Part shown: in pieces, positions 10,011 to 15,947 of the stretch
Layout of the letters: every line of letters starts with the position of its first letter
Position numbering within the stretch: position 1 is the stretch's first letter
Assembly: GCF_011762095.1 (NCBI RefSeq)
Contig: NZ_JAASQO010000006.1
Span: forward strand, 62,001 to 126,000
Length of the DNA: 64,000 nt
Origin: Parvibaculum indicum
Lineage (GTDB): Bacteria > Pseudomonadota > Alphaproteobacteria > Parvibaculales > Parvibaculaceae
Direction: 5' to 3'
Notes under the pieces: model-generated
What the model was told of the DNA's origin: nothing
The model's database searches: none
Seen by the model: only the letters and a program-made list of their open reading frames with translations
Made by a program: the position numbers and the translations under genes

Positions 10011-10029
10011 AATGTTACGTTATAACATT
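10011..10029. promoter_or_regulatory. Zur box upstream of a TonB-dependent receptor
   Basis: A perfect palindrome AATGTTA-CGTTA-TAACATT ends 15 bases before the receptor start codon. It matches the alphaproteobacterial Zur operator layout (AATGTTA-N5-TAACATT). Zinc-loaded Zur would repress the receptor gene; zinc starvation would induce it. Confidence 0.75.
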
Positions 10030-10044
10030 CTAAAAGGGGTGATC

Positions 10045-12114
10045 ATGCGAACGAGATTATTGGTGCGGGCCGGACTCCTCGGAGGGTCGGCCTTGCTTTT
10101 TGTTGCCGGATCGACGGTTCTGGGCGGGGCGTCGGCGCGGGCCGCGGAGCAGGCGGATGAAACTTCGACCGCTGAGTCATCGCCCATCATCGTGACGGCA
10201 TCTCCCTTGCCCGTTCGTCTGGATGAGCTGGCCGCGCCGGTGCTGAGGCTGGACAGGGAAGATATCGAGGCATCGCAGGCCTCCACGCTGGGTGCGCTGC
10301 TGGCAGACCAGCCGGGCCTGAGCGAGAGTTCCTTCGCCGCGGGGGCAAGCCGGCCGATCATCCGGGGCATGGACAATAATCGCGTTCGCGTTCAGGAAAA
10401 CGGTATCGGCGCAGGTGGCGTGTCCGCCCTTTCGGAGGATCATGGCGTACCGATTGATCCGTTGTCGGCAACCAGCGTCGAAGTGGTGCGCGGTCCTGCC
10501 ACGTTGCGCTACGGTTCGGAAGCGATCGGCGGCGTCGTCAATGTGCTGAACGACCGTATTCCGTCGGCGCGTCCCTCCGGAGGTTATTCGGTTTCCGGCG
10601 GTACGAGCTTCGATACGGTCGACCAGGGCAAGGAAGCCCATGGTGCACTGAATGTTGCGACGGGGAATATCGTTTGGCATGCCGACGGCTTTCGCCGCGA
10701 GACAAGCGATTACGACACGCCGCAGGGCGAGCAGTTCAACAGCTGGACCGACACGTCCGGCGTGTCGGGCGGCGGTTCCGTTCTCTTCGGGAACGGATAT
10801 GCGGGTGCCAATGTCGTGCATTACGACAGCGAATACGGCATCCCGGCGCCGGAAGATCCGGCCGATCCCGTCCATATCGATATGCGCCAGACCAAGGTTC
10901 AGCTTCGCGGCGCCTTTGCTTTCGATAGCTGGCTCAGGGGAATCGATTTTGCCGGCGGCTATGGCGATTACCGGCATGACGAGATAACGCAGAGCGGCGT
11001 CGTCGGTTCCACGTTCAAGAACAAGGAGTGGGAAGGGCGCGCCGAATTCCAGCATGGGGCGGTCGGTCCCTTCGCCGGCGCCTTCGGCGTTCAGTACCGC
11101 GACCGGGATCTATCCGCCGCGGGCGAGGGGGGAGAATTGCTCGCCCCCAACACGACGCGCGCCGTGGCCGGTTTCCTCTATGAGGAGATGTCCCTCACCG
11201 ATGCGCTGTCCTTGCAGATGGCAGGGCGCGTGGAGCATGTGAAAGTCGAGGGGACGGCGCTCGATACGGCGACGATCACGGAATATGACGTCTCGCGCGA
11301 CTTCACGCCGCTGAGTGCTTCCGCCGGCCTGGTCTGGAATCTCGACGGCGGATGGGTGACCTCGGCCACCTTCCAGGCTGCGCAGCGGGCGCCGGAGGCA
11401 CCGGAACTCTTTTCCAAGGGGCCTCATGAGGCGACGGAGACCTTCGAGATCGGCGATGCCTCCCTCAACGAGGAAACCGCGTATTCGGCGGAACTTTCCG
11501 CCCGGCGCGAGGGACGCGGCTATTCATTCGCGGCGTCGCTCTTTCACGTCAGTTTCGACGATTTCATCTACAAGGCGCTCACGGGCGAAACCTGCGATGA
11601 CGATTATGCGAGCTGCACCGACGCAGGCGGCACGGGCACGGAACTCGACCAGGTGCGCTATGCGCAGCAGGATGCGAGGTTCTACGGCTTCGAGCTGGAG
11701 GGCAAGGTCGCGCTTCTGCGTACCGATACGGCCACCTATGGCGTGACGGGGCAGGCCGACTATGTACGGGCGAAGCTCGACGGCGGAACCAATGTGCCGC
11801 GCATCCCGCCGATGCGTATCGGCGCCGGTGTCTATCTGGAAGCGGACAGGTTCATGGCGAAGGCCGGTTTCCTTCATGCCTTCCGGCAGAACAAGCTGGG
11901 TCCGAACGAAACCGAGACAGGCGAATATACCGATGTCTCCATGGCATTCCGCTACACATTGCCGGAGCAGATGACCGGCGGCGCCAGCGTGAAGATCAGC
12001 GTTGTCGGCCAGAACCTGCTCGATGCGGATATCCGCAATCACGTTTCCTTCAAGAAGAACGATGTGCTTCTGCCGGGACGCAATTTCCGCCTCGTGGCGA
12101 GCGTGGATTTCTGA
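10045..12114 (+). CDS. znuD: TonB-dependent outer-membrane receptor, probable zinc receptor (ZnuD-like)
   Basis: A 689-residue receptor. Residues 1-33 form a signal peptide ending ARA. A TonB box-like PIIVTASP follows, then a plug domain with SEDHGVPIDPLSATSVEVVRG and LRYGSEAIGGVVNVL, and a 22-strand-type barrel ending in a terminal aromatic (VASVDF). The plug motif with EDHG and the Cys pair CDDDYASC in an extracellular loop resemble ZnuD zinc receptors. The start at 10045 has AGGGG upstream; the ATG at 10012 lies inside the Zur box. Zur control supports zinc uptake. Specificity is inferred from the operator plus similarity, not proved. Confidence 0.85.
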   Translation: MRTRLLVRAGLLGGSALLFVAGSTVLGGASARAAEQADETSTAESSPIIVTASPLPVRLDELAAPVLRLDREDIEASQASTLGALLADQPGLSESSFAAGASRPIIRGMDNNRVRVQENGIGAGGVSALSEDHGVPIDPLSATSVEVVRGPATLRYGSEAIGGVVNVLNDRIPSARPSGGYSVSGGTSFDTVDQGKEAHGALNVATGNIVWHADGFRRETSDYDTPQGEQFNSWTDTSGVSGGGSVLFGNGYAGANVVHYDSEYGIPAPEDPADPVHIDMRQTKVQLRGAFAFDSWLRGIDFAGGYGDYRHDEITQSGVVGSTFKNKEWEGRAEFQHGAVGPFAGAFGVQYRDRDLSAAGEGGELLAPNTTRAVAGFLYEEMSLTDALSLQMAGRVEHVKVEGTALDTATITEYDVSRDFTPLSASAGLVWNLDGGWVTSATFQAAQRAPEAPELFSKGPHEATETFEIGDASLNEETAYSAELSARREGRGYSFAASLFHVSFDDFIYKALTGETCDDDYASCTDAGGTGTELDQVRYAQQDARFYGFELEGKVALLRTDTATYGVTGQADYVRAKLDGGTNVPRIPPMRIGAGVYLEADRFMAKAGFLHAFRQNKLGPNETETGEYTDVSMAFRYTLPEQMTGGASVKISVVGQNLLDADIRNHVSFKKNDVLLPGRNFRLVASVDF

Positions 12115-12192: not shown

Positions 12193-12888
12193 TCAGAGCC
12201 CGATAAAGGGCTGGATCAGGCGCGCCGCGAGGCTTTTCAGACGGATCGGGCCTTCCGTCAGGGCAAGGCAGACACATTCCTCGCCGTCCTCGATGGTCAG
12301 GCCGTGCATGTCGGCTTCGTTCTTTTCCTCGATATCGCCCCTTGCGAAGCGGCCGTGCGGATCCCTGAATGCACCTTTGAGGACAAGGGTAAGCTCGGTA
12401 CCGCGGTGACCATGCACGGGGATATTCGTGCCCGGCCGCGCCCTGAGCATCCAGACACGCTGGTCGCCCGGGCCGCGCCAGAGCATGACCTTCTTCATGC
12501 CCGGTCCCATGAACGACCAGTTCAGATCTTCGAGATCGTTCACGCCCAGCCATTCGCGCAACGGCGCGGGCAGCACGCTGTCCGTCGCGTCGGGGGCCGC
12601 CGACGGGGCTGTCTTGGCCGGCCGTTCGCCGGATACAGGTTCGTCGATCCGGGACAGAACGGCTGCCAGCGCATCCGGCGCCATGGCCGCGCCCGCCTCG
12701 CCGTCCAGCAGCGATCCGCCGATTGCCTCGGCCGCTTCCATGGAACGGGCCGCGTCCGGGCGGTAGCTCAGATGAGACGCAACGAGCACCGCTTCGCCTT
12801 CGCTCAGCGTGCCGGCTGCGTATTCCATGATCCACTCATCGCCAAGGGGATGGGTGATCCCGTTATGCTCGACCGTTGCCGCGCACAT
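12193..12888 (-). CDS. chrR: ChrR-type anti-sigma factor with cupin domain, zinc cysteines missing
   Basis: A 231-residue protein with the two-domain ChrR layout: an N-terminal anti-sigma domain (residues 1-80) and a C-terminal cupin (about 110-225) with the metal motif HGHRGTE and a later His in ADMHGL. ChrR binds and inactivates its ECF sigma factor until singlet oxygen or related stress releases it. In known ChrR the anti-sigma zinc is held by His...HxxxCxxC. Here His13 and His39 are present, but the two Cys positions are Arg43 and Ala46. Its ATG overlaps the sigma gene stop (TGATG), so the two are translationally coupled. Confidence 0.85.
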   Translation of the reverse strand: MCAATVEHNGITHPLGDEWIMEYAAGTLSEGEAVLVASHLSYRPDAARSMEAAEAIGGSLLDGEAGAAMAPDALAAVLSRIDEPVSGERPAKTAPSAAPDATDSVLPAPLREWLGVNDLEDLNWSFMGPGMKKVMLWRGPGDQRVWMLRARPGTNIPVHGHRGTELTLVLKGAFRDPHGRFARGDIEEKNEADMHGLTIEDGEECVCLALTEGPIRLKSLAARLIQPFIGL

Positions 12889-13472
12889 CACTTCAAATCC
12901 TCCAGAGCCGTACGTAGACGGCCGAATGCCAGTCTCATTCTCGATTTCACCGTGCCGAGCGGAATATCCAACTGCTCGGCGATTTCCGAATGCGCCTTGC
13001 CTTCCATGAAGGACAGCATGACGACCTCCGCCTGATCGGGCGGGAGTTCCTTGAGGGCGGCCTGCACCCTGTCGCCGGTCTGCCGGCTTATCACCTCGGT
13101 GTCGGCCTGAGGCGGATCTTCAGGGGTCAGCATGGGGTCGGCGGGGTCGAGGTCGGCCCGCTTTTCCCGACGAACGCGGTCGATGAAGCGGTTTCGCGCA
13201 ATGGTGAATATCCAGGTCCCTACCGCCGCCTTGGCCGGGTCGTATTGCGCCGCCTTGCGCCAGACGGTCAGCATCACCTCCTGTGCGATATCCTCGGCGA
13301 GTTTCTCGTCGACCCTGAGGCGCATCAGGTAGGACTTCACGCGCGGCGCGTAGTAGCCGAACAGTTCAGCAAAGGCCGCCCGGTCCGCGCGATCCACGAT
13401 CGCGGCGATATGTGCCGCCATTTCCCCGGCGCTTGCGTCCGGGGAAGGCGATGCCGGGCTTTCGCGATCCAT
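12888..13472 (-). CDS. rpoE: ECF sigma factor, RpoE/ECF11-like, partner of ChrR
   Basis: About 194 residues with region 2 (AFAELFGYYAPRVKSYLMRL...AEDIAQEVMLTVWRKA) and region 4 (LPPDQAEVVMLSFMEGKAHSEIAEQLDIPLGTVKSRMRLAFGRLR). Its pairing with a cupin anti-sigma factor is that of the RpoE-ChrR singlet-oxygen system of Rhodobacter. The start is placed at 13472 (GGAG upstream); the in-frame ATG at 13556 lies only seven bases past the predicted -10 element and is unlikely. Its own promoter matches the sigma factor's consensus, so it is probably autoregulated. Confidence 0.88.
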   Translation of the reverse strand: MDRESPASPSPDASAGEMAAHIAAIVDRADRAAFAELFGYYAPRVKSYLMRLRVDEKLAEDIAQEVMLTVWRKAAQYDPAKAAVGTWIFTIARNRFIDRVRREKRADLDPADPMLTPEDPPQADTEVISRQTGDRVQAALKELPPDQAEVVMLSFMEGKAHSEIAEQLDIPLGTVKSRMRLAFGRLRTALEDLK

Positions 13473-13562
13473 TCGCTCCAACATCCTCAATCTCGCCCGC
13501 CTTGCAGGGCGTGCGATCCGGGCCCGACCGGTATCTATGGCGGCGATCATCTGCATGACCCG

Positions 13563-13590
13563 GATACGAGCCTGATTTCAGGCTGGATCA
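13563..13590 (-). promoter_or_regulatory. RpoE-type promoter of the rpoE-chrR operon
   Basis: TGATCC (13590-13585) and CGTATC (13568-13563) are separated by 16 bases on the minus strand, matching the RpoE/ECF11 consensus. The 16-base spacer is itself a perfect inverted repeat (AGCCTGA-AA-TCAGGCT). Confidence 0.8.
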
Positions 13591-13692: not shown

Positions 13693-13721
13693 TGATCCGA
13701 CGGAGACCCGGTTGCGTAAGA
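13693..13721 (+). promoter_or_regulatory. RpoE-type promoter of the FAD-protein/DUF1365 operon
   Basis: TGATCC at 13693-13698 and CGTAAG at 13715-13720 with a 16-base spacer, the same architecture as the rpoE promoter on the other strand. The predicted transcript start is close to 13728, which argues for the downstream ATG at 13780. Confidence 0.78.
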
Positions 13722-13779
13722 CAGGACAATGCCGAGGCGGACGGCTTTCCCTCCGCCGGAATTCATTTCAGGGGCTTTC

Positions 13780-15150
13780 ATGGCGCCATTCGACGATCGA
13801 GCATTCAGCGGCCCGAAACCGGGTAAACCCTTGCGGATCGCCGTGGTCGGCAGCGGGATCGCCGGCCTTTCGGCGGCCTGGCTTCTCTCCAAATCGCATG
13901 ATGTGACGGTGTTCGAGAAGAGCGACCGGCCCGGGGGACATTCGAACACGCTGGTGGCGCCGTGCCCCGAGGGGGATGTCCCGGTCGATACGGGCTTCAT
14001 CGTCTATAACGAGGTCAACTATCCCAACCTCACGGCTCTGTTTCGGCATCTCGGTGTGGCGACCTGCGCGAGCAATATGTCGTTTTCCGCCTCCCTGCCG
14101 ACGGCGAGGGGGGGTAGATTCGAATATTCCGGTTCGGGTCTTGGCGGCCTGTTCGGCGACCGGCGCAATCTGGTCCGGCCCCGCATGTGGCGGATGATCC
14201 GGGATATCGTCCGCCTTTATCGCGGCGCACCGGAACTGATGGGCGAGGAGGGGCTGGAGCACAAGGCGCTGGGCGATTTTCTGTCGGAGAAAGGTTTTTC
14301 GAGGGCGCTCAGGGATGATCACCTTCTGCCCATGTGCGCGGCGATCTGGTCGCTGCCGCTGGAACGGGTGGAGCAATTTCCCGCGCTTTCCTTCCTGCGG
14401 TTCTTCGACAATCACGGGCTGATGCGTCTGACGGACCGCCCGGTCTGGCGAACCGTGGACGGTGGGTCGCGCGAATATGTGAACGCGCTTTGTGCTCCGC
14501 TCGGCGACCGGCTTCAGACTGGGCGCGGGGTCGAACGGATCGTCCGCGATGGCGGCGGCGTTGCCGTGACGGATGTGCATGGCAGAACGGAGCGGTTCGA
14601 CAGGGTGGTCATGGCCGCCCATAGCGACGAAACGCTGCGCATGCTGGGCGATGCCGATGAGACGGAGCGGCGGCTTCTGGGTGCGATGCCCTATCAGCGC
14701 AATATCGCCTGGCTTCACAGCGATCCGTCCTTCATGCCGCGTCAGAGGCGCGTCTGGGCGAGCTGGAATTATATGGGCGGTGGCGATGCGCCGGTTTGCG
14801 TGACCTATTGGATGAACAGGCTTCAGCCGCTCCCCACGGAGAGGCAGCTTTTCGTGACGCTCAACCCGACGCACGACCCCGCGCCCGAACATGCGATTGC
14901 CTGCATCGAGTACGATCACCCGGTTTATGATGCCGGTGCCATCGCCGCGCAGCGGGCGTTGTGGTCGCTGCAGGGGCGGCGGCATAGCTGGTTCTGCGGC
15001 GCCTATTTCGGGTCGGGATTTCACGAGGACGGCCTGCAGGCCGGGCTCGCCGTGGCGGAAGAGCTTGGCGGCGTAAGGCGGCCCTGGGATGTGGAAAGTG
15101 CGTCGTCGCGTATCTTCCGCGCGATGCCTCTGGAAAGTGTAGCGGCGTGA
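13780..15150 (+). CDS. NAD(P)/FAD-binding amine-oxidase-like protein
   Basis: A 456-residue flavoprotein with the dinucleotide-binding motif AVVGSGIAGLSAAWLL (about residues 21-36), EKSDRPGGHSNT and a conserved DTGFIVYNEVNYPNL segment. It belongs to the NAD(P)-binding flavoprotein group that accompanies DUF1365 genes in the RpoE-ChrR regulon of Rhodobacter and relatives. The start at 13780 has AGGGG upstream. It is the first gene of the divergent RpoE-controlled operon and overlaps the DUF1365 gene by four bases. A role in modifying unsaturated fatty acids or lipids under singlet-oxygen stress is plausible from context. Confidence 0.87.
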   Translation: MAPFDDRAFSGPKPGKPLRIAVVGSGIAGLSAAWLLSKSHDVTVFEKSDRPGGHSNTLVAPCPEGDVPVDTGFIVYNEVNYPNLTALFRHLGVATCASNMSFSASLPTARGGRFEYSGSGLGGLFGDRRNLVRPRMWRMIRDIVRLYRGAPELMGEEGLEHKALGDFLSEKGFSRALRDDHLLPMCAAIWSLPLERVEQFPALSFLRFFDNHGLMRLTDRPVWRTVDGGSREYVNALCAPLGDRLQTGRGVERIVRDGGGVAVTDVHGRTERFDRVVMAAHSDETLRMLGDADETERRLLGAMPYQRNIAWLHSDPSFMPRQRRVWASWNYMGGGDAPVCVTYWMNRLQPLPTERQLFVTLNPTHDPAPEHAIACIEYDHPVYDAGAIAAQRALWSLQGRRHSWFCGAYFGSGFHEDGLQAGLAVAEELGGVRRPWDVESASSRIFRAMPLESVAA

Positions 15151-15947
15151 CGGGCAAGACGGCAGGCATATGGCGCTCGCGCCTTTATGCGGGCTCGGTT
15201 TTTCACCGGCGGCTCAGGCCGCGGCGGCATGAGCTGCGCTATGGCGTTTTCTACATGCTTCTCGATCTGGACGAGCTCGATGGGCTTGACCGGGGTCTCG
15301 CCGGGTTTGCGCATAACCGCTTTGCGCCGGTCTCCTTTCACGATCGGGATCATGGCGGCGGGGACGGTCGGCCTTTGCGGCAGTGGATTGAAAATCAGTT
15401 GCAGCGCGCGGGACTGACCGTTCGCGGGGGGCGGGTGGAGCTTCTCACCATGCCCCGCATTTTCGGCTATGCGTTCAATCCCTTGTCGATCTGGTTCTGC
15501 CGGGACGGAAGCGACCGCCTGATTGCCGTGCTTTATGAAGTCCGCAATACATTCGGCGACCGGCATTGCTATCTTTTTCCCGTCGCGCCCGGCGACACCC
15601 ATATCGATCAGCGGTGCGACAAGGCATTCTATGTCTCGCCCTTCATGGCGGTTGAGGGAGAATATCGTTTCCGGCTGATGGAGCCCGGGGCGCGCTTTTC
15701 GCTGACGATCCGTGAGAGCGACGGGGAAGGCACCCTTCTGACCGCAAGTTTCGCAGGCGAGGCGAAATCGCTGTCGGCCTCCGGCCTTGCCGGAATGCTG
15801 CTGCGCTATCCCCTGCTGACGCTCAAGGTCGTGGCGGGGATACATTGGGAAGCCCTTAAACTGCTTGCCAAAGGCTTGCGTTTCCGGTCGCGCCCGGCGC
15901 CGCCGGCAAGCCCGGTGACGGTGATTGCGCCCGGATTTCGGCGCTGA
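15147..15947 (+). CDS. DUF1365 protein of the RpoE regulon
   Basis: A 266-residue protein beginning at GTG 15147, overlapping the previous gene's TGA. It has the DUF1365 signature (RRLRPRRHELRYGVFYMLLDLDEL and RIFGYAFNPLSIWFC) and a VLYEVRNTFGDRHCY segment. Function is unknown. In other alphaproteobacteria DUF1365 genes sit with a flavoprotein and a cyclopropane-fatty-acid synthase-like methyltransferase; no methyltransferase follows here, so the operon is shortened to two genes. Confidence 0.88.
   Translation: MTGKTAGIWRSRLYAGSVFHRRLRPRRHELRYGVFYMLLDLDELDGLDRGLAGFAHNRFAPVSFHDRDHGGGDGRPLRQWIENQLQRAGLTVRGGRVELLTMPRIFGYAFNPLSIWFCRDGSDRLIAVLYEVRNTFGDRHCYLFPVAPGDTHIDQRCDKAFYVSPFMAVEGEYRFRLMEPGARFSLTIRESDGEGTLLTASFAGEAKSLSASGLAGMLLRYPLLTLKVVAGIHWEALKLLAKGLRFRSRPAPPASPVTVIAPGFRR

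Follow-up and report, generated by a model that had tools for sequence, protein, structure and literature searches.

A ChrR-family anti-sigma factor of Parvibaculum without the zinc site of its anti-sigma domain and with an intact cupin site

The ChrR-family anti-sigma factor encoded by chrR of Parvibaculum indicum lacks the zinc site of its anti-sigma domain (ASD), having a single histidine left of the four zinc ligands known from Rhodobacter sphaeroides ChrR, and keeps all the metal ligands of its cupin domain. The gene lies in the window, a stretch of 64,000 nucleotides (assembly GCF_011762095.1, contig NZ_JAASQO010000006.1, positions 62,001 to 126,000), to which all coordinates refer (Table 1). 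Comparison with related proteins suggests that this is probably a working ECF11-type ChrR, with an ASD that would fold without zinc in the manner of RseA and sequester sigma-E, leaving the cupin to sense the signal.

The chrR frame is a real one, reading on the minus strand from an ATG at 12888 to a stop codon at 12193-12195, with the ATG sharing one base with the TGA of rpoE (TGATG overlap). The product scores 169.1 bits against TIGR02451 (ChrR family anti-sigma-E factor; cut-off 124.5) and matches PF12973 (Cupin_7), with R. sphaeroides ChrR as its best match in the PDB (2z2s chain B, E 2.6e-38). Against the ChrR equivalog NF051881 it reaches 159.3 bits with the cut-off at 300, so that it is not placed in that narrow equivalog. 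No second canonical ChrR was found in the same genome, the only other match being weak and to the cupin part, and a scan of viral contigs found no relative. Two features of an ECF11 pair are present at the locus, with an ECF sigma gene directly upstream and overlapping and an autoregulatory TGATCC-N16-CGTA promoter, and the ChrR, the promoter and the target genes together point to rpoE-chrR as an ECF11-type pair.

Table 1. Features of the rpoE-chrR locus, in window coordinates.
Feature	Position	Strand	Basis
chrR, 231 aa, ChrR-family anti-sigma-E factor; ASD without zinc site, cupin ligands present	12193..12888	-	TIGR02451, PF12973, PDB 2z2s_B
Cupin ligand His195, opposite His177	12304..12306	-	alignment
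Cupin ligands His159, His161, Glu165 (HGHRGTE), opposite His141, His143, Glu147	12394..12414	-	alignment
Ala46, position of zinc ligand Cys38	12751..12753	-	alignment
Arg43, position of zinc ligand Cys35	12760..12762	-	alignment
His39, position of zinc ligand His31, sole ligand kept	12772..12774	-	alignment
Pro14, position of zinc ligand His6	12847..12849	-	gapless alignment; clade column Arg 16, Pro 4, Gln 1, Thr 1 (22 rows)
His13, opposite R. sphaeroides non-ligand His5	12850..12852	-	alignment with offset +8
rpoE, ECF sigma factor, overlaps chrR	12888..13556	-	Sigma70_r2 and r4
Predicted sigma-E promoter of rpoE-chrR, TGATCC-N16-CGTA	13565..13590	-	motif match
Divergent predicted sigma-E promoter of FAD/DUF1365 pair, TGATCC-N16-CGTA	13693..13718	+	motif match
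FAD/amine-oxidase family protein, UfaD (RSP1091)-like	13729..15150	+	PF01593
DUF1365 protein, UfaO (RSP1090)-like	15147..15947	+	PF07103, 4e-83

In R. sphaeroides ChrR the zinc ligands of the ASD are His6, His31, Cys35 and Cys38 (PMC6852236). The window ChrR aligns with this protein (2z2s_B) without gaps across the ASD at an offset of +8, its residues 39-46 reading H-L-S-Y-R-P-D-A. The preliminary description had reported that both zinc cysteines are absent, and the alignment agrees, Arg43 and Ala46 occupying their places. It had also counted His13 among the zinc ligands that remain, which proved mistaken as the ligand position is held by Pro14 and three of the four ligands are thus missing. 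The ZAS family pattern of H-x3-C-x2-C with an N-terminal His or Cys is correspondingly replaced by H39-x3-R43-x2-A46 with Pro14. Cysteines occur in the whole protein only at C2, C205 and C207 so that no alternative alignment can yield two Cys ligands in the ASD. Alternative Cys ligands were ruled out, C2 being the only other N-terminal cysteine and common, within the 22-row clade described below, only to the window ChrR and its 89% identical relative.

An alignment of homologues from close relatives had been proposed as a check, and it extends the observation from one protein to a lineage and, beyond it, to a recurrent state. Among 27 Parvibaculum genomes including that of the window, 23 gave a ChrR match. 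Nineteen of these give a full ASD of the same lineage, every one without both cysteines and His6 and with His31 kept, and the one relative found that bears a name is an 88-89% identical one (L032); a further locus cut at the N-terminus (L022) shows the same state at the other three ligand places and another shows the cupin only (L024). Outside the genus, the two g4 genomes, which belong to a different genus within the family, carry Arg, Cys, Val and Ala at the four ligand places, and one genome of another family (L030) carries Thr, Phe, Asn and Cys, keeping Cys38. These 22 full rows, 19 from the genus and three from outside it, form one clade (SH-aLRT 99). Two further genomes of the genus (G003 and G007; loci L181 and L182) encode canonical HHCC ChrR proteins that branch elsewhere, among other genera of the family, with the same divergent layout of rpoE-chrR against FAD and DUF1365 genes, though their sigma factors share only 43-45% identity with that of the window; it is likely that a distant version has displaced the module or that the two versions were differentially lost.

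A survey across the class ruled out zinc-site loss as an oddity of Parvibaculum only. TIGR02451 was searched in 387 evenly drawn alphaproteobacterial genomes, at least 90% complete, with matches above the cut-off in 150 of them. Among the 150 matches listed, all of which were read, 114 had all four ligands (HHCC), 30 were without both cysteines and six without one, such that 36 of these 150 matches, spread over 18 of 60 families, lacked at least one cysteine. The full set, which takes in R. sphaeroides as well as the rows from the genus and from the family, comprised 174 non-identical rows after two fragments and eight duplicates had been left out, with 119 zinc and 55 zinc-free rows. Four ligands were kept in 118 rows, three in none, two in seven, one in 31 and none in 17, the remaining zinc row having an X at a ligand place and being unreadable there. 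Rows thus retain either the whole set of ligands or no more than two of them, a distribution suggesting that the ASD zinc site goes as a unit. On a quick tree, built with the ligand columns excluded and holding many open forks, at least 15 changes of state were needed, three of them forced by well-supported branches, these counts being unable to separate loss from regain. A single origin of the zinc-free state was ruled out (p-AU 3.7e-55; 42 selected rows, 18 zinc-free and 24 zinc). Of eight plasmid-borne ChrRs read from 82 records with a match, seven were HHCC and that of Phyllobacterium sp. T1018 was without His6 and Cys38.

The cupin behaves differently from the ASD. In R. sphaeroides ChrR the cupin binds a second zinc through His141, His143, Glu147 and His177 (PMC6852236), and the motif HGHRGTE, said in the preliminary description to remain, is indeed present in the window ChrR together with His195. 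The His-His-Glu-His set is unchanged in all 174 aligned rows, the 55 zinc-free rows included. Since the TIGR02451 cut-off may itself favour good cupins, weaker matches, some of them just above the cut-off, were also read (26 loci in 22 genomes). At nine loci only one of the two sites was visible, and at 17 loci, two with an identical frame, both could be read, giving 16 distinct proteins. All nine zinc-free proteins among these keep the HHEH cupin; of the seven HHCC proteins three have an altered cupin by automatic alignment, and none of the 16 has lost both sites. The ChrR-like proteins L215, L217 and L218 present the reverse case, with HHCC kept and the cupin ligands absent in the alignment.

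TGATCC-N16-CGTA is the published consensus of the Pseudomonas syringae ECF11-type factor PSPTO_1043, for which Parvibaculum is named among the genera with homologues of the pair and phrB among the genes carrying the motif in P. syringae (PMC5507510). TGATC[CT]-N16-CGTA was found before rpoE in 22 of 22 clade rows, 13 of 23 other zinc-free rows and 83 of 108 zinc rows, compared with means in shuffled upstream regions of 0.05, 0.1 and 0.45 rows, respectively, for a looser pattern counted on the rpoE strand only. The divergent copy facing the FAD gene was present in 22 of 22, 0 of 23 and 46 of 108 rows, respectively. The first ATG of rpoE stands 8 bases past the CGTA of its promoter (13556-13590, minus strand), with a spacing of 8-9 in the clade members compared, and is so near that the rpoE message may be leaderless. 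At the other end of the pair, a TonB receptor gene (10012-12114, plus strand) lies tail to tail with chrR, its best NCBIfam match being ZnuD at 318 bits, under the cut-off of 950. Of 19 Parvibaculum loci, 16 have such a ZnuD-like gene next to chrR, and zinc economy may accompany the loss of the zinc site in this genus; at three loci (L004, L009 and L013) PPK2 and the next gene take the place of the TonB receptor.

In the genome of the window the motif occurs eight times, with an estimated 6-8 expected by chance and none found with a reversed-pattern control, and only the positions of the sites, not their total, are taken as evidence of promoters. Six sites precede rpoE, the FAD/DUF1365 pair, a pair of DUF1295 and cyclopropane-synthase-type (CMAS) genes, a DUF6134 gene, a sigma-32 (rpoH) gene (NF005693, 398.7 bits, cut-off 315) and a photolyase gene; of the remaining two, one lies near unplaced genes and one inside a frame that presumably resembles nuoD. 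Just beyond the window (L193, G000:C6:129000-134500) a second divergent TGATCC-N16-CGTA pair separates the DUF1295/cyclopropane-synthase-type genes from the DUF6134 gene. Judged by family, the genes behind the sites appear to be of kinds found in the R. sphaeroides sigma-E regulon. Photolyase is a sigma-E target in that organism. The likeness of the FAD protein to UfaD is read from its family and from the gene order RSP1091/RSP1090 rather than by direct comparison, RSP1090 being what we take to be a DUF1365 protein. RSP1091 and RSP1090 have been described as UfaD and UfaO, which together with the methylase UfaM serve to make furan fatty acids (PMC7380195), and RpoHII is described as belonging to the sigma-E cascade of R. 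sphaeroides (PMC6852236).

The loss of ligands might mean that ChrR has given up its anti-sigma role in this lineage or binds weakly, sigma-E being largely constitutive or otherwise controlled. The preliminary description stated that characterised ChrR needs zinc for sigma binding, and the published account of R. sphaeroides, where zinc binding by the ASD is required for sigma-E inhibition, bears this out and speaks for such a loss (PMC6852236). In the Parvibaculum clade, however, all 22 rows have a sigma gene next to chrR and carry the autoregulatory motif, and an autoregulated sigma factor left constitutive should be counter-selected. ASD dN/dS within the clade is 0.07-0.32 (eight pairs), and the window ChrR compared with its 89% identical relative gives 0.125 for the ASD and 0.065 for the cupin (all by NG86, some dS values being high); by these estimates chrR is clearly under purifying selection in the clade. 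Across all comparisons the ASD values are 0.07-0.32 in 13 zinc-free pairs and somewhat lower, 0.08-0.12, in five zinc pairs, suggesting that constraint may be weaker without zinc. A lost or weakened role is thus unlikely for the window ChrR. Outside the clade the case is different, as a profile search found no ECF sigma gene within about 1 kb in nine of 33 other zinc-free rows (L134, L139, L155, L157, L159, L160, L165, L166 and L169) compared with nine of 118 zinc rows (Fisher p 0.005, the rows being related and not independent). Some of these orphan zinc-free ChrRs are perhaps anti-sigma factors no more, and zinc loss there may mark a changed role.

A second alternative, which we consider quite improbable, is that the ASD has a metal site made of other residues such as His13, His39 and an acidic residue. 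In keeping with this, all 22 clade rows have His13 and 19 of them have His39 as well, and the His5 column, to which His13 belongs, is kept in the clade even though it holds His in only seven of 33 other zinc-free rows. Against it, the place of His39 is taken by Cys in both g4 rows and by Phe in L030, and no new conserved cysteine was seen in the clade. Moreover, 104 of 119 zinc rows also have His in the His5 column without using it as a ligand, suggesting that the column has another role. In the clade, residue 35 (R. sphaeroides numbering) is Leu in 16 rows, Val in three, Arg in two and Asn in one, Ala occupies position 38 in 19 of 22, and Trp11 of helix I is found in 22 of 22 rows as against six of 119 zinc rows. 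In the 33 zinc-free rows outside it, residue 35 is Asp in nine, Ser in eight and Asn in four, residues common as the first of a helix, and they often precede Pro36 (23 of 33 rows), while residue 38 is Ala in 14 and Ser in 10. Such replacements may steady the helix bundle, those of the Parvibaculum lineage being correlations within one clade. An AlphaFold model made from two rows (mean pLDDT 48) placed helices at 17-24, 30-40, 46-61 and 71-79 with block pLDDT of 32-44, and analysis of ASD packing from it was discarded as the model was too poor. A sequencing or assembly error, raised earlier together with a different placing of Cys ligands as grounds for doubt, has nothing in its favour and is ruled out, as independent genomes both within the genus and in other families show the same loss; neither doubt held.

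Anti-sigma domains without zinc are already known in general, and zinc-free class I ASDs are described as an accepted kind (PMC7406223). The ASDs of RseA and ChrR are reported to share one fold, without and with zinc respectively (PMC6852236), from which it follows that protein contacts can stand in for zinc. Escherichia coli RseA and Mycobacterium tuberculosis RskA thus resemble the window ChrR, by description and not by sequence comparison, in having a zinc-free class I ASD (PMC7406223; PMC6852236), but have no cupin and belong with a different sigma group. RsiW of Bacillus subtilis likewise is reported to hold its sigma factor without needing zinc, yet it has a CHCC motif, is membrane-bound and differs in binding geometry (PMC5358783). 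The groups AS19-1 and AS27 are described as including both zinc and zinc-free ASDs, as the ChrR family does (PMC7406223). The closest known system remains R. sphaeroides ChrR (2z2s, 2q1z), which shares with the window ChrR the two-domain layout, the cupin ligands and CxC, an ECF sigma partner and the kinds of target genes, but differs in the HHCC zinc site of its ASD. RseA and RskA, unlike the window ChrR, are membrane-bound. In the open-licence papers searched, no report was found of a zinc-free ChrR or of repeated all-or-none loss of the ChrR zinc site beside a constant cupin.

As R. sphaeroides ChrR needs zinc to inhibit, a working window ChrR should fold without it and some compensation must exist. 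In this favoured reading, the three-helix bundle that zinc pins in R. sphaeroides ChrR would be held by side-chain packing as in RseA, in this lineage with position 35 hydrophobic or Arg, position 38 small and Trp at 11 of helix I. The zinc-free ChrR would still sequester sigma-E, and the cupin, its metal site intact, would sense stress, whether singlet oxygen or organic peroxide. The preliminary description had offered sensing only by the cupin as a possibility, and the comparative pattern favours it; in R. sphaeroides the response to singlet oxygen is reported to depend on the cupin, including Glu147 and His177 but neither Cys187 nor Cys189 (PMC6852236). Turnover of ChrR would probably depend on furan fatty acids, and sigma-E once freed would switch on rpoE-chrR, the furan-fatty-acid-type genes, photolyase and rpoH.

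For the family, the frequent loss of the zinc site with the cupin kept, in 55 aligned rows and nine weaker matches, tentatively suggests that the ASD zinc is structural and dispensable, its site having disappeared whole on many occasions, and that the constant cupin is the sensor. Several other groups of Alphaproteobacteria besides Parvibaculum appear to share this state. If the zinc is indeed dispensable, zinc-free ChrR lineages would provide a natural separation of the roles of the ASD zinc and the cupin. A natural ChrR without the zinc site, set among the same promoters and types of gene, makes the question of which part senses stress directly testable, and should such a protein respond, zinc thiolates would not be needed for the response.
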